Below, in pieces: positions 1 through 41,485 of a DNA stretch of 49,369 nucleotides. The position numbers and the translations under genes were made by a program. The stretch is from an uncultured Oscillospiraceae bacterium. Lineage in GTDB: Bacteria; Bacillota; Clostridia; Oscillospirales; Oscillospiraceae. The notes beneath the pieces were generated by a model, which did not search any database, had not been told where the DNA came from, and saw nothing but the letters and a program-made list of their open reading frames with translations. The stretch covers positions 1 through 49,369 of the forward strand of contig CANQJZ010000013.1 of the NCBI GenBank assembly GCA_947624385.1, read 5' to 3'. The first letter of the stretch is position 1. The number at the start of each line of letters is the position of its first letter.

Positions 1-480
1 CTGCTGCACCGGGCGTTCTCCATCTTCCTCTACGACCGGGCCGGGGGGCGGATGCTGCTGCAACAAAGGGCGGCGGGCAAGTACCACTCCGGGGGGCTTT
101 GGGCCAACGCCTGCTGCTCCCACCCACGGGCGGGCATGGACATGGCGGAATGTCTGAACAGGCGGCTGGGAGAAGAGCTGGGTCTGCATACGGCGCTCCC
201 CATCACGGCCGACGCCGGGGCCGGGTTTTGCCCATGCGGCAGCTTTCTCTACGAGATGCGCCAGGGGGACATAGGCGAGCACGAGCTGGACCACGTGTTT
301 TTGCACTGCCCGGCCCAGGCGCCAGAGCCGGATAAGCTGGCCTTAGACCGGTCAGAGATCGCCCGGCTCCGATGGGCGCCCATGGACGAGCTGCGGGCCT
401 GGATGGACCAGCGGCCAGAGGACTTCGCCGCCTGGTTCCCACCGGCGCTCAAATTGGCCGAGCAGTATATAAATCGGTGA
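1..480 (+). CDS. idi: Isopentenyl-diphosphate delta-isomerase type 1 (5' truncated by window edge)
   Basis: This is the C-terminal 159 residues of a type 1 isopentenyl diphosphate isomerase, the Nudix-fold enzyme that interconverts IPP and DMAPP in the cytosol for isoprenoid synthesis. Visible family marks are HRAFSIFLYD, LLQQRAAGKYHSGGLW, the catalytic-cysteine/metal segment CCSHP, the Nudix-like RLGEELG, the acidic metal-binding GEHELDHVF and the late LRWAPMDEL. Only about 20-30 N-terminal residues seem to be missing, because the frame is open to base 1. The gene ends in TGA at 478-480. The next gene, a small peptide, begins 53 bases later and looks unrelated. Identity rests on these motifs and is firm. 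Confidence 0.93.
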   Translation: MLHRAFSIFLYDRAGGRMLLQQRAAGKYHSGGLWANACCSHPRAGMDMAECLNRRLGEELGLHTALPITADAGAGFCPCGSFLYEMRQGDIGEHELDHVFLHCPAQAPEPDKLALDRSEIARLRWAPMDELRAWMDQRPEDFAAWFPPALKLAEQYINR

Positions 481-532
481 AACGACGTGAAGCGCGTTTC
501 AAATATAAAAAATCTGAAAAGGAGACACAACG

Positions 533-769
533 ATGAACGAGGAAATGCTGAAAAAGCTGCAAGAGGCCAAGTCCGCCGAGGACGTGGTCGCCATCGCGAA
601 GGAGCACGGCAAGGAGATCACCCTGGAGCAGGCCCAAGCCCTCCTGGACCGGGTGAAGCATACCGTCAGCGGCGAGCTGTCCGACGATGACCTGGAGGCC
701 GTCGCAGGGGGCGAAGGTTACCTCTTTGACCCTCTGTTGGAAGAGATAGGCAGCTGGTTCGGCAAATAA
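533..769 (+). CDS. Nif11-leader-type peptide with double-glycine site and short core
   Basis: A 78-residue acidic peptide. Residues 1-60 are a helical Nif11-like leader (EEMLKKLQEAKSAEDVVAIA...) that ends in LSDDDLEAVAGG, the classic double-glycine processing motif of RiPP and bacteriocin precursors. The putative core is the 18 residues EGYLFDPLLEEIGSWFGK. It has no Cys and a single Ser, so lanthionine or sactipeptide crosslinks look impossible. It is amphipathic and aromatic. A good ribosome site (aaaaggaga) lies 8 bases before the ATG, and a strong terminator follows. No maturase or C39-peptidase transporter is nearby. It may be an orphan precursor, an unmodified secreted peptide or a signalling peptide. 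Leader class is fairly sure; function is unknown. Confidence 0.75.
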   Translation: MNEEMLKKLQEAKSAEDVVAIAKEHGKEITLEQAQALLDRVKHTVSGELSDDDLEAVAGGEGYLFDPLLEEIGSWFGK

Positions 770-13957: not shown

Positions 13958-14232
13958 AAAATCGCCCTTGAATAACATCAAGGACGACATACATACGCCG
14001 TGGTACCACCTTGCTTCACCCGTCCCTCACGGGACCGGGCCTTTGGGGGTTCCATCAAACCCCTGCGCTGTAACGGGCGCGCCCGTCGCGGACTACATAT
14101 CGCCCACGCGGCTCCAAGACCATGTTCGGCGGACTCTCTGCACCCCTTCCCAGCTGCCGGGGCTCTCTGCGGCATAACCTTTCCGCTTACTCTTCTTTTC
14201 ATTGCCTTTGTGTGGTATTCAATTGTTCTGTG
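13958..14232 (-). ncRNA. T-box leader, methionine-specific, upstream of metNIQ
   Basis: Minus strand carries the T-box core AAGGTGGTACCACGG (14012-13998), which pairs with the tRNA acceptor end. It is followed by a 9-bp terminator (CGTCCTTGA 13986-13978 with TCAAGGGCG 13971-13963) and ATTTT. Upstream, Stem I contains AGAGAG motifs, and the specifier region reads GAAC-ATG-GTC. This places ATG (Met) at 14123-14121 in the usual GAAC-codon context. A stem III hairpin (GGGGTTTGATGGAACCCC) lies between. Uncharged tRNA-Met should stabilise the antiterminator and switch on the methionine importer. The specifier is read by eye from pattern. Confidence 0.9.
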
Positions 14233-17428: not shown

Positions 17429-17555
17429 TTGTTACTCTCTCCTTACGTTACAGTTTAAATCTTTAACTGGTCAAAAACCATGGTTAAACAAAATGAGCTT
17501 ACCAAATGGTACGCTCAAGCAATCGGACAAATGCCCCCATTCCCGGCGGGCGTTC

Positions 17556-17645
17556 ATTCTGTCCTTTTGCCTGAGAGATTAAGCGCTTCGCGCCTTGCCC
17601 CTTCGGCCCCCGCGATCAGACGCGGGCTTCTCCAGAATCCCATCC
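17556..17645 (-). ncRNA. Glycine riboswitch, single aptamer, upstream of the AGCS gene
   Basis: Minus strand reads GGAGAAGCCCGCG, then GCCGAAGGGGCAAGGCGC, then AATCTCTCAGGCAAAAGGACAG, the conserved core of the glycine aptamer. Only one full aptamer is seen. Just upstream, AGCCGTCAGGACCG/CGGAACTGGCT can form a hairpin that may be the 'ghost' partner of singlet riboswitches. The 17429-17555 platform has no clear terminator, so control could be at translation. Known members upstream of symporters respond to glycine. Confidence 0.92.
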
Positions 17646-33327: not shown

Positions 33328-33339
33328 ATCAAAAAATTA

Positions 33340-33368
33340 TTGACAATTATCGCATTACGCACTATAAT
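33340..33368 (+). promoter_or_regulatory. Consensus sigma-A promoter of the aromatic amino acid operon
   Basis: TTGACA (33340-33345), 17 bases, TATAAT (33363-33368), full consensus, 30 bases before a leader-peptide ATG. Confidence 0.92.
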
Positions 33369-33397
33369 GCCGGTGACAACACAAAGGAGCCATTTTT

Positions 33398-33454
33398 ATG
33401 CGTTTCGTTTTTTCCGCCAGCTTTTATCGTTCCTATTACTTTTTCGGAAGGTAA
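33398..33454 (+). CDS. Phe/Tyr-rich attenuator leader peptide
   Basis: An 18-codon open frame, MRFVFSASFYRSYYFFGR, with five Phe and three Tyr, including the block YYFF. It has its own ribosome site (AAAGGAG, 33383-33389), begins about 24 bases after the expected transcription start, and ends in TAA 43 bases before an intrinsic terminator. It precedes the shikimate/tyrosine operon. This is the arrangement of the E. coli pheL leader: a ribosome stalled at Phe or Tyr codons would favour an antiterminator. Too short for usual gene finders. The reading frame, codons and position are seen; attenuation is inferred. Confidence 0.85.
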   Translation: MRFVFSASFYRSYYFFGR

Positions 33455-33497
33455 TAGCGACAGGTGCTGCGGAAAAGCGTTCGACCAGAATCTACAG

Positions 33498-33529
33498 GCT
33501 GTGCGGCACATGCGCCGCACAGCTTTTTT
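33498..33529 (+). terminator. Attenuator terminator of the aro operon leader
   Basis: GCTGTGCGGC (33498-33507) and GCCGCACAGC (33514-33523) form a perfect 10-bp stem with six T's after it, 19 bases before the aroF start. It is between promoter and first gene, hence a conditional terminator. The alternative antiterminator pairing in 33455-33497 is not obvious by eye. Confidence 0.88.
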
Positions 33530-33548
33530 GTAAAGGAGAGTATTCCCC

Positions 33549-34553
33549 ATGATAACCGTCCTGAAACCCAATGCCACCGCCGAGCAGCGGGACCACCTCA
33601 TCCACTGGCTGGAGGGCCAGAACGTGCAGGTACACGTGTCCCAGGGCGACGAGTACACCATTCTGGGCCTGGTGGGCGACACGTCCCACATCGACATGGA
33701 GCTGCTGCAGAGCCTTGAGATCGTCCAGTCCGTGAAGCGGGTCAGCGAGCCGTTCAAAAAGTGCAACCGGAAGTTTCACCCGGAGGACACGGTGGTAAAC
33801 GCCGGAGGCGTCGCCATCGGCGGCGGACACTTCGCCGTCATCGCGGGACCATGCTCCGTGGAGACCCACGACCAGATCATCGGCATCGCCGAGAGCGTGA
33901 AGGCCAGCGGGGCCAAGCTTTTGCGGGGCGGCGCGTTCAAGCCCCGGACCAGCCCCTACGACTTTCAGGGCCTGCACGCCACGGGACTGGAGCTGCTGGC
34001 CGAGGCGAAAAAGGCCACGGGCCTGCCCATCGTGTCGGAGATCATGGACATGCGGGACCTGGACCTGTTCGCGGACGTGGACGTGATACAGGTGGGGGCA
34101 CGGAATATGCAGAATTTCGAGCTTCTGAAGGGTCTGGGCCGGACCGGCAAGACGATTTTATTGAAGCGCGGCCTTGCCAACACCATCAAGGAGCTTCTCA
34201 TGAGCGCCGAGTATATCATGGCCGGGGGCAACGAGAACGTGATACTGTGCGAGCGGGGCATCCGGACCTATGAGACGTACACCCGCAACACCCTGGACCT
34301 GTCGGCCGTGCCGGTGCTGCACGAGCTGAGCCACCTGCCCGTAGTCGTTGACCCCAGCCACGCCACCGGACATTCCAGTCTGGTGCCCTCCATGGCCCTG
34401 GCGGCCGCCGCGGCGGGGGCCGACGGCATCATGGTGGAGGTACACAACGACCCGCTGCACGCCCTGTGCGACGGGGCGCAGAGCCTGACGCCGGAGCAGT
34501 TCGACGGTTTGATGAAGCAGATAAACCGGGTGTTGGAGGCAATTCGGTCATGA
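33549..34553 (+). CDS. aroF: DAHP synthase (3-deoxy-7-phosphoheptulonate synthase), type I-beta with ferredoxin-like domain
   Basis: A 334-residue first enzyme of the shikimate pathway, joining phosphoenolpyruvate and erythrose 4-phosphate. Residues 1-70 form the ferredoxin-like regulatory domain found in Thermotoga-type enzymes (MITVLKPNATAEQRDHLIHWLEG), which confers Tyr/Phe feedback in known cases. The barrel follows, with FAVIAGPCSVETHDQ, GAKLLRGGAFKPRTSPYDFQG, VIQVGARNMQNF, LLKRGLANTIKE, CERGIRTYE and PVVVDPSHATGH. AAAGGAG precedes the ATG. First gene of the operon; its stop overlaps tyrA by ATGA. Confidence 0.95.
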   Translation: MITVLKPNATAEQRDHLIHWLEGQNVQVHVSQGDEYTILGLVGDTSHIDMELLQSLEIVQSVKRVSEPFKKCNRKFHPEDTVVNAGGVAIGGGHFAVIAGPCSVETHDQIIGIAESVKASGAKLLRGGAFKPRTSPYDFQGLHATGLELLAEAKKATGLPIVSEIMDMRDLDLFADVDVIQVGARNMQNFELLKGLGRTGKTILLKRGLANTIKELLMSAEYIMAGGNENVILCERGIRTYETYTRNTLDLSAVPVLHELSHLPVVVDPSHATGHSSLVPSMALAAAAAGADGIMVEVHNDPLHALCDGAQSLTPEQFDGLMKQINRVLEAIRS

Positions 34554-35383
34554 CAGTCGGCATCGTGGGCCTGGGCCTCATCGGCGGGTCCCTGGCCAAG
34601 GCGTACAAGCGCGACCCGGACGTGAAGGTCCTGGGCTGGAACCGCAGCCGGTCCACATTGGAATTTGCCATGCTGGACGGAGCCGTGGACGGGGTTTTAA
34701 CGGCGGAGAATTTGAAAACCTGCGACCTGGTGCTGATCGCCCTCTACCCCCAGGCGGCCATGGACTATATGAACGAGCACGCGGAGGATTTTTCCAAAAC
34801 CGGTATCGTCATGGACTGCGCCGGGGTGAAGCGGGCCATATGTGAGTTCGGCTTTGACCTGGCAAAAGCGCACGGCTTTACCTTCGTTGGCGGCCATCCC
34901 ATGGCCGGGACCCAGTTTTCCGGCTACAAATACGCCCGGGCCAATCTCTACGACCGCTCGCCCATGGTGGTAGTGCCGCCGGTATACGACGACCCGGACT
35001 TTCTGGCAAGGGTCAAGGCCCTTTTGAAGCCCGCCGGGTTCGGCCGCATCAGCGTGACCACCGCCCAGGACCACGACGAGATGATCGCCTTCACCTCCCA
35101 GATGTGCCACGTGGTGTCCAACGGGTACATCAAAAGTCCCACTGCCGCAAGGCACCGGGGCTTTTCCGCCGGGAGCTACAAGGATCTGACACGGGTGGCG
35201 TGGCTGAACCCCGGCATGTGGACCGAGCTTATTTTGGACAACCGGGACAATATGCTCGCCGAGATGGACGCGTTCATCGCCAGCATGCAGGCCTACCGGG
35301 ACGCCATCGCGGCGAACGACCACGACACGCTTTGCGCCCTGTTGGAGGAGGGCAAGCGCCGGAAGGAGGAGATCGACGGATGA
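34550..35383 (+). CDS. tyrA: Prephenate dehydrogenase
   Basis: A 277-residue NAD(P)-dependent enzyme that converts prephenate to 4-hydroxyphenylpyruvate for tyrosine. It has the dinucleotide-binding GIVGLGLIGGSLAKAY, VMDCAGVKR, the catalytic histidine in GGHPMAGTQFSG, and the helical C-terminal dimer domain with AFTSQMCHVVSNGYI. No ACT domain is attached, so feedback may act elsewhere. ATG 34550 overlaps the aroF stop. GGAGG lies 13 bases upstream. It is the only post-chorismate dehydrogenase here; no prephenate dehydratase (pheA) is in the operon. Confidence 0.93.
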   Translation: MTVGIVGLGLIGGSLAKAYKRDPDVKVLGWNRSRSTLEFAMLDGAVDGVLTAENLKTCDLVLIALYPQAAMDYMNEHAEDFSKTGIVMDCAGVKRAICEFGFDLAKAHGFTFVGGHPMAGTQFSGYKYARANLYDRSPMVVVPPVYDDPDFLARVKALLKPAGFGRISVTTAQDHDEMIAFTSQMCHVVSNGYIKSPTAARHRGFSAGSYKDLTRVAWLNPGMWTELILDNRDNMLAEMDAFIASMQAYRDAIAANDHDTLCALLEEGKRRKEEIDG

Positions 35384-36456
35384 AAACCGTACACGTACCC
35401 GTATCCGTGCCATACGACGTGGCCGTGGGGCCGGGGCTGCTGGACGGTCTGGGCCGGACGGTGAAAACCCTCTGCCCCGGGGCCAGCCGGTACGTGCTGG
35501 TGACCGACACCGGCGCGGGACCAAGCTGGGCGAAAAACGCGGAAAAGAGCCTGACCGACGAAGGGCTGCTCGGGGACACGTTTACCCTGCCACAGGGGGA
35601 GGCCAGCAAGACGGCCGCGAACCTCATCGACCTGCTGAATTTCGCCGCCGCCCGCCGCATGACCCGCTCGGACGTGTTCGTGGCCCTGGGCGGCGGCATG
35701 GTGGGCGACCTCACCGGTCTCGCCGCCGCCACATACATGCGGGGCGTGGCCTATATCCAGTGCCCCACAACGCTTCTCGCCGCCGTGGATTCCTCCGTGG
35801 GCGGCAAGACGGCCGTGGACCTGCCCGCGGGCAAGAATCTCATGGGGGCGTTCTGGCAGCCGCGGGCCGTGCTGTGCGACACGGACACGCTGGGGTCTCT
35901 GCCGGAGAACGTGTTCACCGCCGGGTGCGCCGAGGTCATCAAGACGGCGGTGCTGTTCGACCCGGCATTGTTCGACCTGCTGGACCGGGTCGGCAAGGGC
36001 TTCGACCGGGAGGCGGTCATCGCCCGGTGCGTAGAGCACAAGCGGGACGTGGTGGCGGAGGATGAGTTCGACACGGGCCGTCGGGCCCTTTTGAATCTGG
36101 GCCACACATTGGGCCACGCGGTGGAAGCGGAGAGCGGTTTCGGCCTGTCCCACGGCGAGGCCGTGGCCATCGGGCTGGCCGTGGTCTGCCGTGCCGCCGC
36201 CAAAAACGGCATTTGCGCCGCCGACGTGCCGGCGCGGGTGGACGGTATTCTGGATAAGTTCGGCCTGCCCACCCATACGGACGCGCCATTTCCCGCGCTG
36301 GCGGAGCGGATGCTCTCGGACAAAAAGCGCTCCGGGGGTAAGACAAGCGTCATTGGGGGCACGATCAACGTCATCGTGCCGGAGGCGATAGGCCGCTGTG
36401 TGATACGGCCCATGGGTACGAATGAGACGGCGGCGTTCATGAAAGCGGGGCTTTGA
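35380..36456 (+). CDS. aroB: 3-dehydroquinate synthase
   Basis: A 358-residue NAD- and metal-dependent enzyme forming dehydroquinate from DAHP. Clear motifs are VFVALGGGMVGDLTGLAAATYMRGV, QCPTTLLAAVDSSVGGKTAVDLPAGKNLMGAFWQP, GCAEVIKTAVLFD, LNLGHTLGHAVEAESG and LSHGEAVAIGLAVV, carrying the metal ligands Glu, His and His. It starts with ATGA overlapping tyrA, with GGAAGGAGG upstream, and is followed by aroA 1 base later. Third enzyme in a tightly coupled operon. Confidence 0.95.
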   Translation: MKTVHVPVSVPYDVAVGPGLLDGLGRTVKTLCPGASRYVLVTDTGAGPSWAKNAEKSLTDEGLLGDTFTLPQGEASKTAANLIDLLNFAAARRMTRSDVFVALGGGMVGDLTGLAAATYMRGVAYIQCPTTLLAAVDSSVGGKTAVDLPAGKNLMGAFWQPRAVLCDTDTLGSLPENVFTAGCAEVIKTAVLFDPALFDLLDRVGKGFDREAVIARCVEHKRDVVAEDEFDTGRRALLNLGHTLGHAVEAESGFGLSHGEAVAIGLAVVCRAAAKNGICAADVPARVDGILDKFGLPTHTDAPFPALAERMLSDKKRSGGKTSVIGGTINVIVPEAIGRCVIRPMGTNETAAFMKAGL

Positions 36457-36457
36457 G

Positions 36458-37681
36458 ATGAAGGCCATCATCCAGCCATCCCGCCTGGCCGGGACCATAC
36501 CGGCCATCGCCTCCAAAAGCCAGGCCCACCGGCTGCTCATTTGCGCGGCCCTGGCCGACAGGCCCACGGCCATCGCCTGCCCCACCCTCTCGGCGGATAT
36601 TATCGCCACAGCCGACTGTCTGCGGGCCCTGGGGGCGGATATCGTATACGAAAACGGCGGGTTCAGTGTAGCGCCGATAAATGCCGTGCCGGAGCGTCCC
36701 GCGCTGGACTGCGGCGAGAGCGGGTCCACCCTGCGGTTTTTGCTGCCGGTGGTGTGTGCCCTTGGCGCAGAAGCGACCATCAAAATGCACGGACGGCTGC
36801 CGGAGCGGCCATTGTCCCCCCTGTGGGAGGAGCTGGAGCGCCACGGAGCAAAATTATCCCGGCCCGCGCCGGATGAGATCGCCGTGGCGGGAAGGCTCAC
36901 GCCGGGGGACTATACCCTGGCCGCCAACGTGTCCTCCCAGTTCATCAGCGGACTGCTGTTCGCCCTGCCCCTGTTGGACGGGCCGAGCCGTATCGCCCTG
37001 ACGGGACATTTGGAGTCGGCGGCATACGTGACCATGACCGTGCGGGCGTTGGGGCTTTTCGGCGTGGAATGTCCCATGGGGGACAATGGCTTCACCGTGC
37101 CCGGCGGGTCCCGCTACGTCTCCCCCGGTCAGGCGGCGGTGGAGGGCGACTGGTCCAACGCCGCGTTCTGGGTCGTGGCGGACCACATCTGCGGCGGCAC
37201 GCTGCGCGTGACGGGGCTGGACCCGGATTCCCCCCAGGGGGATAAGGCGGTGACGGCGCTGGCGGCGCGTATCTCGGCGGGCGACAACCTGGTGGACTGC
37301 GCCGACGTACCCGACCTGGTGCCGGTCTTAAGCGTGCTGGCCGCCGTCAGCCCCGGGGTGACAAGATTTCAAAACGCCGGGCGGCTGCGGATAAAGGAGA
37401 GCGACCGGCTGGCCGTCACGGCAAAGCTGATAAGCGCCCTGGGCGGCGACGTGCAGGAGCTGGCCGACGGACTTATTATAACGGGAAAGCCCCGTCTTGC
37501 CGGCGGCGAGGCAGACAGCGCCAACGACCACAGGATCGCCATGAGCGCCGCCGTGGCGGCATTGGCATGTGAGGGGCCGGTCACGCTCCACGGGGCCGAG
37601 GCCGTAAACAAATCTTATCCCGCCTTCTGGGAAGATTTCGCCCGTCTGGGAGGCCGGATCACTTTGGAGGACGAACCATGA
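36458..37681 (+). CDS. aroA: 3-phosphoshikimate 1-carboxyvinyltransferase (EPSP synthase)
   Basis: A 407-residue two-domain EPSP synthase. It has the substrate-binding ASKSQAHRLLICAALA, DCGESGSTLRFLLPVV, the phosphate-binding AGRLTPGDYTLAANVSSQFISGLL, VEGDWSNAAFWVVA and the C-terminal RLRIKESDRLAVTAKLISALGG and NDHRIAMSAAVAAL. The N-terminal PEP loop has ESGST where the usual glyphosate-sensitive enzyme reads NAGTA, so it looks like a class II-type or divergent enzyme; sensitivity is not predictable from this alone. Gene spacing of 1 base to aroB and an ATGA overlap with aroC show coupling. Confidence 0.94.
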   Translation: MKAIIQPSRLAGTIPAIASKSQAHRLLICAALADRPTAIACPTLSADIIATADCLRALGADIVYENGGFSVAPINAVPERPALDCGESGSTLRFLLPVVCALGAEATIKMHGRLPERPLSPLWEELERHGAKLSRPAPDEIAVAGRLTPGDYTLAANVSSQFISGLLFALPLLDGPSRIALTGHLESAAYVTMTVRALGLFGVECPMGDNGFTVPGGSRYVSPGQAAVEGDWSNAAFWVVADHICGGTLRVTGLDPDSPQGDKAVTALAARISAGDNLVDCADVPDLVPVLSVLAAVSPGVTRFQNAGRLRIKESDRLAVTAKLISALGGDVQELADGLIITGKPRLAGGEADSANDHRIAMSAAVAALACEGPVTLHGAEAVNKSYPAFWEDFARLGGRITLEDEP

Positions 37682-38682
37682 GCAACAGCTTTGGCAGCCG
37701 CTACCGCTTCACCATTTTCGGCCAGTCCCACGCCCCCGCCATCGGCGTGACGATCGAGGGGCTTCCTTCCGGGTTCGCCCCGGACATGGACGCGCTGGGG
37801 GCCTTTCTGGCCCGCCGTGCGCCGGGGCACGGCAAGTACGCCACGGCCCGGAAAGAGGCCGACGCGCCGGAGTTCATCGCGGGGCTGGCGGACGGGCACA
37901 CCTGCGGCGCGCCGGTGACCGCCGTCATCCGCAACACCGACGCCCGCTCGTCGGACTACGACCAGCTGCGCCGGGTGCCGAGACCGGGCCACGCGGACTA
38001 CACCGCCTTCGTAAAATACGGACCTGCCCGGGACGTGGCCGGGGGCGGACAGTTCTCCGGCCGGCTCACCGCGCCGCTGTGCGTGGCGGGAGGGCTGGCG
38101 CTGCAGCTGCTGGCCCAGGAGGGCATCAGCGTCCGGGCCCGCGTTTTGTCCATCGGCGGCGAAACGGAGCCCGCCGCCGTGGAAGCGCTGCTGGAAGATG
38201 TCAAGGCCGCCGGGGATTCGGTGGGCGGCATCATTGAGTGCGTGGCCGAGGGCGTGCCCGCCGGTCTGGGCGAGCCCATGTTCGGCGGCATGGAGAATCG
38301 TATCGCCCAGGCGGTATTCGCCATACCCGCCGTGAAGGGCGTGGAGTTCGGCGCGGGCTTTGCCGTAGGCCATATGCGGGGCAGCGAGAACAACGACCCC
38401 TTCTATTTTGACGAGGCCGGTCCGGTCCGCACCCGGACAAATCACCACGGCGGTATTTTGGGCGGTATCACCAGCGGCATGCCCATCGTGTTCCGTGCCG
38501 CGTTCAAGCCCACCCCGTCCATCGGCATGGAACAGGACAGCGTGGACCTTTTCTCCCACGAGAACGTGAAGCTCACGGTCCAGGGCCGTCACGACCCATG
38601 CATCGTGCTCCGGGCCGTGCCATGCGTGGAGGCCGCCGCCGCCGCGGCCATTTACGACGCGTTGTTGGAAAGCAGGTGTTGA
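37678..38682 (+). CDS. aroC: Chorismate synthase
   Basis: A 334-residue FMN-dependent enzyme that makes chorismate from EPSP. Motifs: FTIFGQSHAPAIGVTIEGLPSG, LARRAPGHGKYATARKEAD, RPGHADYTAFVKYG, GGGQFSGRLTAPLCVAGGLA, GRHDPCIVLRAVP. It is slightly shorter than the usual 350-390 residues, as in several clostridia, but all flavin and substrate motifs are present. It overlaps aroA by ATGA and ends 1 base before the chorismate mutase gene. Confidence 0.95.
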   Translation: MSNSFGSRYRFTIFGQSHAPAIGVTIEGLPSGFAPDMDALGAFLARRAPGHGKYATARKEADAPEFIAGLADGHTCGAPVTAVIRNTDARSSDYDQLRRVPRPGHADYTAFVKYGPARDVAGGGQFSGRLTAPLCVAGGLALQLLAQEGISVRARVLSIGGETEPAAVEALLEDVKAAGDSVGGIIECVAEGVPAGLGEPMFGGMENRIAQAVFAIPAVKGVEFGAGFAVGHMRGSENNDPFYFDEAGPVRTRTNHHGGILGGITSGMPIVFRAAFKPTPSIGMEQDSVDLFSHENVKLTVQGRHDPCIVLRAVPCVEAAAAAAIYDALLESRC

Positions 38683-38683
38683 C

Positions 38684-38962
38684 ATGGACTTGAACGAACT
38701 GCGAGAAAAAATCGACGCGGTGGACCGGCAGCTCATCGCGCTGTTGGAGCAGCGGCTGGACGTGGCCGCCCAGATCGCCGCCTATAAAAAGGCCCACGGT
38801 CTGGCCGTGCTGGACCCGGGCCGTGAGGCGGCGAAAGTGGAGGCCGTCAAGGCCCAGTGCCGGCCCGAGACGGCGGAGCTTATCGGAGGGCTTTACGGCC
38901 CCATCATGGCCGCAAGCCGCGCCTATCAGGAAAGGCTGATGGAGGAACACGATGGGCAGTAA
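38684..38962 (+). CDS. Chorismate mutase, AroQ fold
   Basis: A 92-residue all-helical monofunctional chorismate mutase. Helix 1 is LNELREKIDAVDRQLIALLEQRLDVAAQIAAYKK, with the active-site Arg and Lys of the family, and a short helical C-terminus follows (LYGPIMAASRAYQERLME). It converts chorismate to prephenate, feeding tyrA in this operon. In many bacteria the same domain is fused to prephenate dehydratase or DAHP synthase; here it stands alone. It overlaps the next gene by 11 bases. Confidence 0.92.
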   Translation: MDLNELREKIDAVDRQLIALLEQRLDVAAQIAAYKKAHGLAVLDPGREAAKVEAVKAQCRPETAELIGGLYGPIMAASRAYQERLMEEHDGQ

Positions 38963-40178
38963 GAAATTCGGGCTGCTGGGCCGGACGCTGGGCCACAGCT
39001 GGTCGCCGCAGATACACGGCATGCTGGCCGATTACGGGTACGAGCTCTACGAGGTGGAGCCGGATGATTTGGACCGGTTTTTGCGGACCACGGACCTGGA
39101 CGGGATGAACGTGACCATCCCCTACAAAAAAGACGTGCTCACCTACTGCGCCCAGCTCTCCGACGCAGCGACACGCATCGGCAGCGTGAACACGCTGGTC
39201 CGCCGGTCTGACGGCTGGTACGGGGACAACACGGACTACACCGGCTTCCGGTATATCGTGGAGCGCTCCGGCGTGGATGTGGCGGGCAAAAAAACGCTGG
39301 TGTTCGGCACCGGCGGCGCGTCCCTGGCCGTAAAAGCGGCGCTGGCGGAGATGGGCGCAGACCCGATCGTGTCCGTGTCAAGGACCGGGGAAAATAATTA
39401 TGGTAACCTGGACAGGCATCGGGACGCGGCCATACTGGTCAATACCACACCCCTGGGGATGTTCCCCAACACCGGCGCAGCGCCCGTATCTGTCGCGGAC
39501 TTCCCCGCCTGTGAGGGGGTGTTCGACGTGGTGTATAACCCGCAGCGGACGGCGTTTTTGCTGGAAGCGGAAAAACTGGACATACCACACGCCGGGGGTC
39601 TCGGCATGCTGGTGGCCCAGGCGTGGCGCAGCGCGGAGCAGTTCGCGGGACATGAACTCCCCAAGGAAAAAATAGAAGAAATTATGTCAACTCTTTCCCG
39701 GCAGATGTCCAACATCGTTTTGATCGGCATGCCGGGTTGCGGCAAGTCCGCCGTGGGGCGGGCGCTGGCGAAGGCCCTGGACCGACCGTTTATCGACGCG
39801 GACGGTGAGATCGTGAAGGCGGCGGGCTGTTCTATCCCGGACATTTTCGCCGCGGAGGACGAGGCAGGCTTCCGGGCCCGGGAGACGGCGGCGCTGGCGG
39901 AGCTGGGCAAGGGCTCCGGGACAGTGCTGGCCACCGGCGGCGGGTGCGTCACCAGGGCGGAAAACTATCCCCTGCTGCACCAAAACGGCGTCATCGTGTG
40001 GCTCACCCGGGACCTTGCCAAGCTGCCCAAGGCAGGACGGCCGCTTTCACAGCAAAATTCCGCCGAGACCCTGTACGCGCAGCGGCGGGACAAATACGCC
40101 GCGTTCGCGGACATCACCGTGGACAACAACGGGCCGCTGGAGGACACCGTAACACACATTTTGGAGGCGCTCAAATGA
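38952..40178 (+). CDS. Shikimate dehydrogenase-shikimate kinase fusion
   Basis: A 408-residue fusion of two consecutive pathway enzymes. Residues 1-250 are AroE: GLLGRTLGHSWSPQIHGML, GMNVTIPYKKDVL with the catalytic Lys, GDNTDYTGF with the catalytic Asp, the NADP-binding TLVFGTGGASLAVKAAL, and GVFDVVYNPQRTAFL. From residue 252 follows AroK: VLIGMPGCGKSAVGRALAK (Walker A), FIDADGEIVKAAG, FRARETAAL and VLATGGGCVTRAENY. The product of the first half, shikimate, is the substrate of the second. An internal ATG at 39705 starts the kinase part but has no clear ribosome site, so a separate kinase is not expected. Confidence 0.94.
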   Translation: MGSKKFGLLGRTLGHSWSPQIHGMLADYGYELYEVEPDDLDRFLRTTDLDGMNVTIPYKKDVLTYCAQLSDAATRIGSVNTLVRRSDGWYGDNTDYTGFRYIVERSGVDVAGKKTLVFGTGGASLAVKAALAEMGADPIVSVSRTGENNYGNLDRHRDAAILVNTTPLGMFPNTGAAPVSVADFPACEGVFDVVYNPQRTAFLLEAEKLDIPHAGGLGMLVAQAWRSAEQFAGHELPKEKIEEIMSTLSRQMSNIVLIGMPGCGKSAVGRALAKALDRPFIDADGEIVKAAGCSIPDIFAAEDEAGFRARETAALAELGKGSGTVLATGGGCVTRAENYPLLHQNGVIVWLTRDLAKLPKAGRPLSQQNSAETLYAQRRDKYAAFADITVDNNGPLEDTVTHILEALK

Positions 40179-40609
40179 AAATACTTGTGATAAACGGGCC
40201 GAATCTCAACATGCTTGGCATCCGGGAACCGGGCATTTACGGCGAGCAGAGCTACGACGCGCTGGTGAAGTTCATCCAGGACGTTTGCAACCAGCACAGC
40301 GTGGAGGCGGAGTGCTTCCAGTCCAACCATGAAGGGGCCATCGTGGATAAGATACAGGCCGCCTATGGAGTCGTGGACGGCATCGTCATCAACCCCGCCG
40401 CCTACACCCACACCAGCGTGGCCATATTGGACGCGCTGAAGGCGGTGAGCATCCCGGCGGTGGAGGTACATCTGTCCGACGTGTCGGCAAGGGAGGCCTT
40501 TCGCCAGGTGTCCTACGCGGGGCTGGCATGCGAGAAGACATACGCCGGCCACGGCTTCGTCGGGTACCGGCTGGCGATCGAGTATCTGGTGGAGCACTAC
40601 GGAAAATGA
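40175..40609 (+). CDS. aroQ: Type II 3-dehydroquinate dehydratase
   Basis: A 144-residue type II dehydroquinase, last gene of the operon. It has VINGPNLNMLGIREPGIYG with the catalytic Tyr, SNHEGAIVDKIQ, the catalytic His in INPAAYTHTSVAILDAL, and VEVHLSDVSAREAFRQVSY. It acts between AroB and AroE, so the operon includes every step from DAHP to chorismate. It overlaps the aroEK fusion by ATGA. A hairpin follows at 40615. Confidence 0.95.
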   Translation: MKILVINGPNLNMLGIREPGIYGEQSYDALVKFIQDVCNQHSVEAECFQSNHEGAIVDKIQAAYGVVDGIVINPAAYTHTSVAILDALKAVSIPAVEVHLSDVSAREAFRQVSYAGLACEKTYAGHGFVGYRLAIEYLVEHYGK

Positions 40610-41304: not shown

Positions 41305-41377
41305 TTTCTTCTCCTTTCTTTGCGGAAAGCAACGCCGCCAGGCACATAGTGACCCGACGGCGAGCGCGCAGCATGAG

Positions 41378-41473
41378 CTGCCAGTTTCCTACGCCGGTAT
41401 TATCCGGATCAGGTTCCAGGGCCCGGCGCGTCTACGCGCCATCTCAGCCGGGTCACACCCAGCACCCCTTTTC
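41378..41473 (-). ncRNA. TPP (THI-element) riboswitch of thiT
   Basis: Minus strand reads GGGGTGCTGGGTGTGACC, CGGCTGAGATGG, CCCTGGAACCTGATCCGGAT and AATACCGGCGTAGGAAACTG. These are the conserved TPP aptamer blocks, with CUGAGA for the pyrimidine sensor helix and the GAACCTGAT / GCGTAGGAA pieces of the other. No terminator is clear in 41305-41377, so the switch may hide the ribosome site. Thiamine pyrophosphate should turn thiT off. Confidence 0.95.
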
Positions 41474-41485
41474 GATTGTGTGGCC

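Follow-up and report, generated by a model that had tools for sequence, protein, structure and literature searches.

Leader-peptide attenuation of aromatic amino acid synthesis is taught from enterobacteria, and the regulators usually associated with Bacillota are T-boxes and TRAP. The nearest system that we found in print is the uORFC-13-1 motif of Acholeplasma aroF: The passages on this motif describe 24 representatives with a uORF containing at least 1 Phe codon and a terminator stem, propose attenuation, and confine the motif to Acholeplasma and environmental sequences of unknown origin (PMC8632094). Leader-peptide attenuators for His, described in the relevant part of another study for Eubacteriales, Erysipelotrichales, and the Bacillus cereus group (6, 5, and 6 species, respectively; PMC9413887), indicate that this kind of regulator does exist in Bacillota. 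For the Phe and Tyr operons of Actinobacteria, no conserved structure is reported (PMC1262725). Our search of the open-licence literature, with most subscription papers outside its scope, found no attenuator of clostridial aroF.

We analyzed a stretch of 49,369 nucleotides from an uncultured Oscillospiraceae bacterium (contig CANQJZ010000013.1; hereafter “the window”), in which a preliminary description made from the letters alone had proposed a Phe/Tyr attenuator in front of a shikimate operon. The consensus promoter, the 18-codon leader with its own ribosome site and 8 Phe/Tyr codons, and the terminator behind it that this description had named are all borne out and lie on the plus strand between a TauE-like gene and aroF. 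The sigma-A-type promoter (TTGACA-17-TATAAT, 33340–33368) matches the consensus at 12/12 positions, with 2 promoter-like sites in a 1,201-base scan against 0.2 expected, and promoter-like hexamers were also seen by eye, though uncounted, in upstream regions of the genus. It is followed by the leader’s Shine-Dalgarno sequence AAAGGAG (33383–33389) and the leader ORF (33398–33454), which runs from ATG at 33398 to TAA at 33452–33454, is directly followed by a second, tandem stop codon (TAG, 33455–33457), and encodes MRFVFSASFYRSYYFFGR with 5 Phe and 3 Tyr among its 18 codons. The intrinsic terminator with its U tract (33496–33529; stem 33496–33525, U tract 33524–33529) was found by terminator scan and in the minimum free energy (MFE) fold, and it shows two-sided changes within the genus. 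From a transcription start expected near 33375, the distance to the terminator end would be only about 150 nt. The terminator scan by itself is weak evidence (3 terminator-like sites versus 1.6 expected in shuffles), and the binomial probability of at least 8 Phe/Tyr among 17 non-Met codons (2e-5 at 8% background, 4e-4 at 12%) includes no correction for the numerous short ORFs that might have been chosen.

Beyond the terminator, Pfam assigned 8 genes from aroF to aroQ: aroF itself (33549–34553; DAHP synthase, DAHP_synth_1 with an FXD domain), followed by tyrA, aroB, aroA, aroC, a chorismate mutase, an aroE-aroK fusion, and aroQ (34550–40609). Spacing and strand suggest that all 8 are co-transcribed. 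The operon had been described as covering the steps from DAHP to prephenate, which it does, but it extends one step further on the Tyr side through tyrA together with the separate chorismate mutase.

Comparison with relatives, which the preliminary description had recommended, revealed that the Phe/Tyr codons are kept throughout the genus. aroF is present in 33/35 genus genomes, and we examined 30 upstream regions including that of the window (29 distinct sequences), all of which contain a leader of 17 to 19 codons with 6 to 10 Phe/Tyr codons (125 Phe and 133 Tyr in total), as well as the tandem TAATAG and a GUGYUGC strand. Codons −6, −5, and −4 are Tyr, Tyr, and Phe in 30/30 leaders, and the third bases of both Tyr codons are invariant while that of the Phe codon varies, just as pairing with the stop codons would demand. 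The start codon is kept as ATG or, in one member (L022), GTG; all other positions vary, with exchanges between Phe and Tyr at many of them. Start and translation of the leader ATG are therefore inferred from the Shine-Dalgarno sequence, the kept start codon and frame, and these Phe/Tyr exchanges, and the comparative sequence data provide strong evidence that the leader is real.

The full leader RNA (33375–33535) has a predicted folding energy of −58.5 kcal/mol (z −5.2), which 0/200 dinucleotide shuffles reached. In its MFE fold, segment 1 within the leader coding sequence (33409–33421) pairs with segment 2 (33466–33477) and encloses a stop hairpin (33433–33457) formed between the Tyr-Tyr-Phe codons and the tandem stop codons; the terminator forms downstream. 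Segment 2 overlaps the 5′ strand of a predicted antiterminator (33457–33470; core GUGCUGC at 33464–33470), and the 3′ strand of the latter (33503–33515; core GCGGCAC at 33503–33509) comprises part of the terminator 5′ arm, the loop, and the first 2 bases of the 3′ arm. This antiterminator had escaped the preliminary description, which had suggested folding the region with and without its 5′ part in search of mutually exclusive hairpins. Such exclusive structures are indeed predicted: With the part before 33440 omitted and the transcript ending at 33516, three bases inside the terminator 3′ arm, 33457–33470 pairs with 33503–33515, in a fold that is no more stable than shuffled sequences (z 0.15). 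The leader is modeled as three competing pairings, namely leader coding sequence with post-stop strand, post-stop strand with terminator 5′ arm, and the terminator itself.

The stop hairpin forms 9 pairs in all 29 distinct genus sequences (7/9 invariant), and the terminator shows two-sided changes at 3 pairs in 11 cells of the genus alignment. In the 7-pair antiterminator core, 99.5% of cells are paired and there is no two-sided change; 3 of its pairs vary on one side, 3 never vary, and 1 is broken in a single sequence, and its covariation within the genus appears uninformative. An RNAalifold consensus of the genus alignment recovers both the stop hairpin and the terminator; the helix of segments 1 and 2 is missing from it and may be concealed by codon gaps that MAFFT placed in segment 1. 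One genus member (L026) has a terminator with mismatches and one mismatched antiterminator pair, due to either assembly error or decay.

We then modeled how a ribosome would affect these pairings, using nascent RNA up to 33516 and a footprint that extends 18 nt upstream and 12 nt downstream of the first A-site base. The antiterminator core has a predicted probability of 0.57–0.99 with the A site at codons 3–14 and of at most 0.07 when the ribosome is absent or its A site lies at codon 2 or 15–20, so that a ribosome at the Phe-Phe codons 15–16 is not predicted to free the antiterminator strand. On full-length RNA, the terminator outcompetes the antiterminator at every ribosome position, and the switch must therefore be kinetic. 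A broader measure, which counts the terminator arm as sequestered whichever upstream sequence it pairs with, was higher with the ribosome on Phe/Tyr codons than without ribosome in 22/26 genus, 36/46 order, and 27/39 class leaders, and higher than with the ribosome at the stop codon in 19/26, 35/46, and 27/39, respectively; the genus rows leave out L004, L023, L025, and L026, in whose trimmed fragments no terminator was detected. This predicted effect across leaders is only moderately clear, and for the window the shift is small (0.44 on Phe/Tyr codons versus 0.39 both without ribosome and at the stop) because this measure also includes other pairings of the arm with upstream sequence. The same arm-sequestration measure, rather than core-helix probability, gave 0.81 for Escherichia coli trpL with the ribosome at the second Trp codon versus 0.05 without ribosome (0.32–0.51 at codons 2–5 and about 0.4 at codons 9–10), and for E. 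coli pheL 0.49 over codons 4–14 versus 0.20 without ribosome.

Beyond the genus, aroF was found in 128/197 genomes of the order, and 129 upstream regions from 119 other genomes, including 10 second copies, were scanned for a leader, defined as an ORF led by a Shine-Dalgarno sequence with at least 5 Phe/Tyr within 10 codons (assumed aroF start ATG in 122/129, TTG in one, and other codons in six). A leader was present in 75/129 and a leader with terminator in 70/129, compared with 21/2,580 and 1/2,580 dinucleotide shuffles. Leaders, including terminator-bearing ones, occur in 17/18 families with the exception of f5 (2 upstreams), and they are rare in family f11 (2/23). By this criterion, 54/129 upstreams have no leader, and some of these may not be operon starts. 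Leaders across the order vary in length and spacing, yet they stay rich in Phe/Tyr; in a scan of the 129 upstreams for residue pairs, FY scored 75 and the best of 14 other pairs were FL (35) and WF (29), with at most 13/129 for each pair without F. In other orders of the class, a leader was found in 43/87 upstreams (39/87 with terminator), and leader plus terminator in 22/41 families; the shuffle controls refer to the order set rather than to these 87. Named records, the best 80 by AroF similarity and thus phylogenetically uneven, yielded a leader in 49/78 upstreams by the strict criterion (44 with terminator) and in 50/80 by a looser scan that did not require a Shine-Dalgarno sequence; carriers include Sporobacter termitidis DSM 10068, Angelakisella massiliensis, and Emergencia sp. 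1XD21-10, and at least one named record (L032) doubles as a genus member (L020). No match to the leader was found among phages, and a DNA search of the window’s genome (93% complete) found no second copy.

Partner-swap tests used one leader per genus and compared the duplex energy of own and permuted partners over 10,000 permutations. For the antiterminator, the strand that follows the aromatic cluster (at most 75 nt) was paired with the terminator 5′ arm and loop. Across 47 genera of the order including that of the window (17 families), the mean energy was −18.3 with own and −13.8 with permuted partners (z −10.9; 0/10,000 permutations reached the observed mean), while the reversed-strand control still gave a weak signal (z −2.66, 45/10,000). 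The own terminator was among the best 5 for 22/47 strands against 5 expected; that of the window ranked eighth of 47. An earlier version with segment 2 positioned by the stop codon had given z −4.2, and placement by the last aromatic codon was chosen after this result; the signal rose because the leader ORF spans the antiterminator strand in many lineages. With this placement unaltered, the class set of other orders (28 genera, 22 families) was then run and gave a mean of −16.2 with own versus −11.1 with permuted partners (z −9.5, 0/10,000; reversed-strand control z −0.75), with the own terminator among the best 5 for 22/28. Leader coding sequences likewise matched their own segment 2 in the order (z −14.3) and the class (z −11.5; 0/10,000 each), with reversed controls at z −1.5 and z −1.24, and the region before the leader gave no signal with the terminator in the order set (z +0.41). 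One strand is thus complementary to two others across genera, which is the mark of an attenuator. In many lineages (L064, L149, L114, and others), the leader ORF continues through the antiterminator strand with no earlier stop, and a finishing ribosome would there cover the strand itself.

Altogether, the locus has an ORF enriched in end-product codons with its own ribosome site and a terminator between this ORF and the first gene, and prediction and comparison point to an antiterminator that excludes the terminator and a protector pairing that a stalled ribosome would release. Its layout, conservation, and mutually exclusive predicted structures, together with complementarity that follows the genome in the swap tests, uphold the proposed Phe/Tyr attenuator. 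We consider it very probable that the leader works as a ribosome-dependent transcription attenuator, which would gauge the supply of charged Phe-tRNA and Tyr-tRNA and adjust transcription of the entire aro operon accordingly, and we infer its transcription start, translation, stalling, read-through, and physiological signal as follows. RNA polymerase would start near 33375, and a ribosome would follow into the leader ORF. With ample Phe and Tyr, the ribosome would pass the aromatic codons and reach the tandem stop, and either segments 1 and 2 would pair again or the ribosome would cover segment 2; with the antiterminator blocked in this way, the terminator at 33496–33529 would halt transcription. 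Under a shortage of Phe or Tyr, the ribosome would stall at codons up to about 14 and cover segment 1, leaving 33457–33470 free for the terminator 5′ arm and loop as they emerge, and with the antiterminator formed polymerase would read on into aroF. Without translation, pairing of segments 1 and 2 plus the terminator would constitute the off state.

Might the operon instead be run by a T-box or another RNA sensor, with the leader ORF being incidental? T-boxes do occur before aroF in 2 of 20 scanned loci of relatives (L230 and L224), of which 19 are leaderless by our criterion and one (L327) has a doubtful leader without terminator, and the window’s genome has one T-box over the cut-off (13977–14211) besides a weaker match. 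None was found in 20 loci of leader-bearing relatives, though, and none of the 4,227 models of Rfam 15, T-box included, reached the gathering score at 33330–33560, where E<=10 gave only three matches far under their cut-offs; moreover, the Phe/Tyr reading frame is kept within the roughly 150 nt between the expected start and the terminator end, and we regard such a sensor as very improbable. Next to no weight remains for the view that regulation is absent, with Phe/Tyr codons arising by chance in a U-rich spacer and the hairpin terminating the upstream gene: Such codons are U-rich and shuffles of the region often give terminator-like sites, but a 12/12 promoter separates the upstream gene from the leader, leader plus terminator was reached by only 1/2,580 shuffles, and in neither partner-swap set did any of 10,000 permutations attain the observed value. 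Arrest by the nascent peptide rather than by codon supply, with free Phe or Tyr perhaps acting as the ligand, has precedents in tnaC and erm-type leaders and could draw on residue patterns shared between the aromatics in some lineages (approximately RFTGFxYxRYF in several f21 genera and similarly in genus g2 of f1). We find it improbable, if a little less so than a separate sensor, given that all leader positions except the start and Tyr-Tyr-Phe vary in the window’s genus, that leaders across the order differ in length and spacing yet remain rich in Phe/Tyr, and that base pairing may account for part of the shared residues.

It is unlikely, though much less far-fetched than these readings, that the attenuator senses only one amino acid and carries the codons of the other for structural reasons. 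In favor of this view, pairing with GTAATAG fixes the two Tyr codons TAT TAC, so that the Tyr signal could be partly structural. Nevertheless, each of the 75 swap-test leaders, order and class sets combined, contains both residues (394 Phe, 296 Tyr), which also have similar totals in the genus, as given above, and tyrA is part of the operon while pheA is not: The latter is on a different contig, where about 35 nt separate it from the gene before it and leave no room for such a leader, and by eye no similar attenuator was found in the sequence in front of it. Joint sensing of Phe and Tyr is likely. Trp codons are absent from the genus leaders (0/531). An anthranilate synthase N-domain was not found in the window’s genome, and loss of the Trp branch was considered as the cause of the missing Trp codons and rejected, as this domain was found in 15/35 genus genomes (8/13 among better genomes); the choice of Phe and Tyr therefore does not stem from Trp auxotrophy.

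Several observations stand beside this argument. The T-box leader of the window, the only one of its genome over the cut-off, lies on the minus strand (101.9 bits) before an ABC transporter ATPase that by eye looks methionine-type; a glycine riboswitch (17549–17645) and a TPP riboswitch (41369–41479), both on the minus strand, reached their gathering scores. The T-boxes before aroF in L224 (147–412) and L230 (145–395), both on the minus strand and in family f11, come without a detectable leader and constitute a change of regulator at one gene. In L159, a glmS ribozyme match (399–553, plus strand, 95.9 bits) lies upstream of aroF on the opposite strand. Members of two families (L204, L209, L181, L187, L176, and L207 as well as L206, L208, and L213) have a residue pattern in common, approximately RFTGFxY..RYF or FTRFTGYGYF, with Arg and Thr kept amid the aromatics, which could be due to pairing or to an effect of the nascent peptide.

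If our reading is right, leader-peptide attenuation would be a frequent control of the first step of this pathway across Clostridia, whose carrier lineages include many gut genomes according to record titles, and annotators would gain a regulatory RNA family for a leader that Rfam 15 leaves without a match. We lean slightly towards a single inherited, class-wide family in Clostridia that makes entry into the shikimate pathway depend on Phe/Tyr charging through a ribosome closely trailing the polymerase and that was lost or replaced by T-boxes in places. Johnson et al. 2020, reportedly on Bacillus subtilis, is the source behind a review’s statement on runaway transcription. A single family would imply transcription-translation coupling, at least at the aroF leader, in a class related to Bacillus, for which uncoupled transcription has been reported, and the leader offers a test of such coupling in Clostridia. 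Uncoupled or “runaway” transcription may, according to that review, be a fairly widespread feature of bacteria (PMC7858274).

Among known systems, T-boxes (RF00230) likewise precede aroF in two relatives, and the window’s leader has no T-box match. The Bacillota His attenuators, as far as their description goes, share leader peptide, terminator, and antiterminator before a biosynthetic operon but differ in their His codons and his operon (PMC9413887). Compared by description only, uORFC-13-1 resembles the clostridial leader in its Phe-codon uORF and terminator before aroF, but the text on this motif speaks of Phe incorporation and not of Tyr, whereas the clostridial leader has codons for both (PMC8632094). 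While the mechanism class is textbook, the family, its spread across Clostridia, the joint Phe/Tyr codons, and the tandem-stop hairpin appear new within the open-licence literature that was searched. Like E. coli pheL and trpL, the aroF leader combines a short stretch of end-product codons, exclusive pairings, and a terminator before the cognate biosynthetic operon, and it behaves similarly in ribosome-position folding (by the broader measure for the E. coli pair). Unlike them, it is found in another class of organisms, targets a DAHP synthase heading 8 genes, carries codons for two amino acids, has tandem stops within a hairpin, and, here and in many relatives, forms a predicted antiterminator that reaches the terminator loop.
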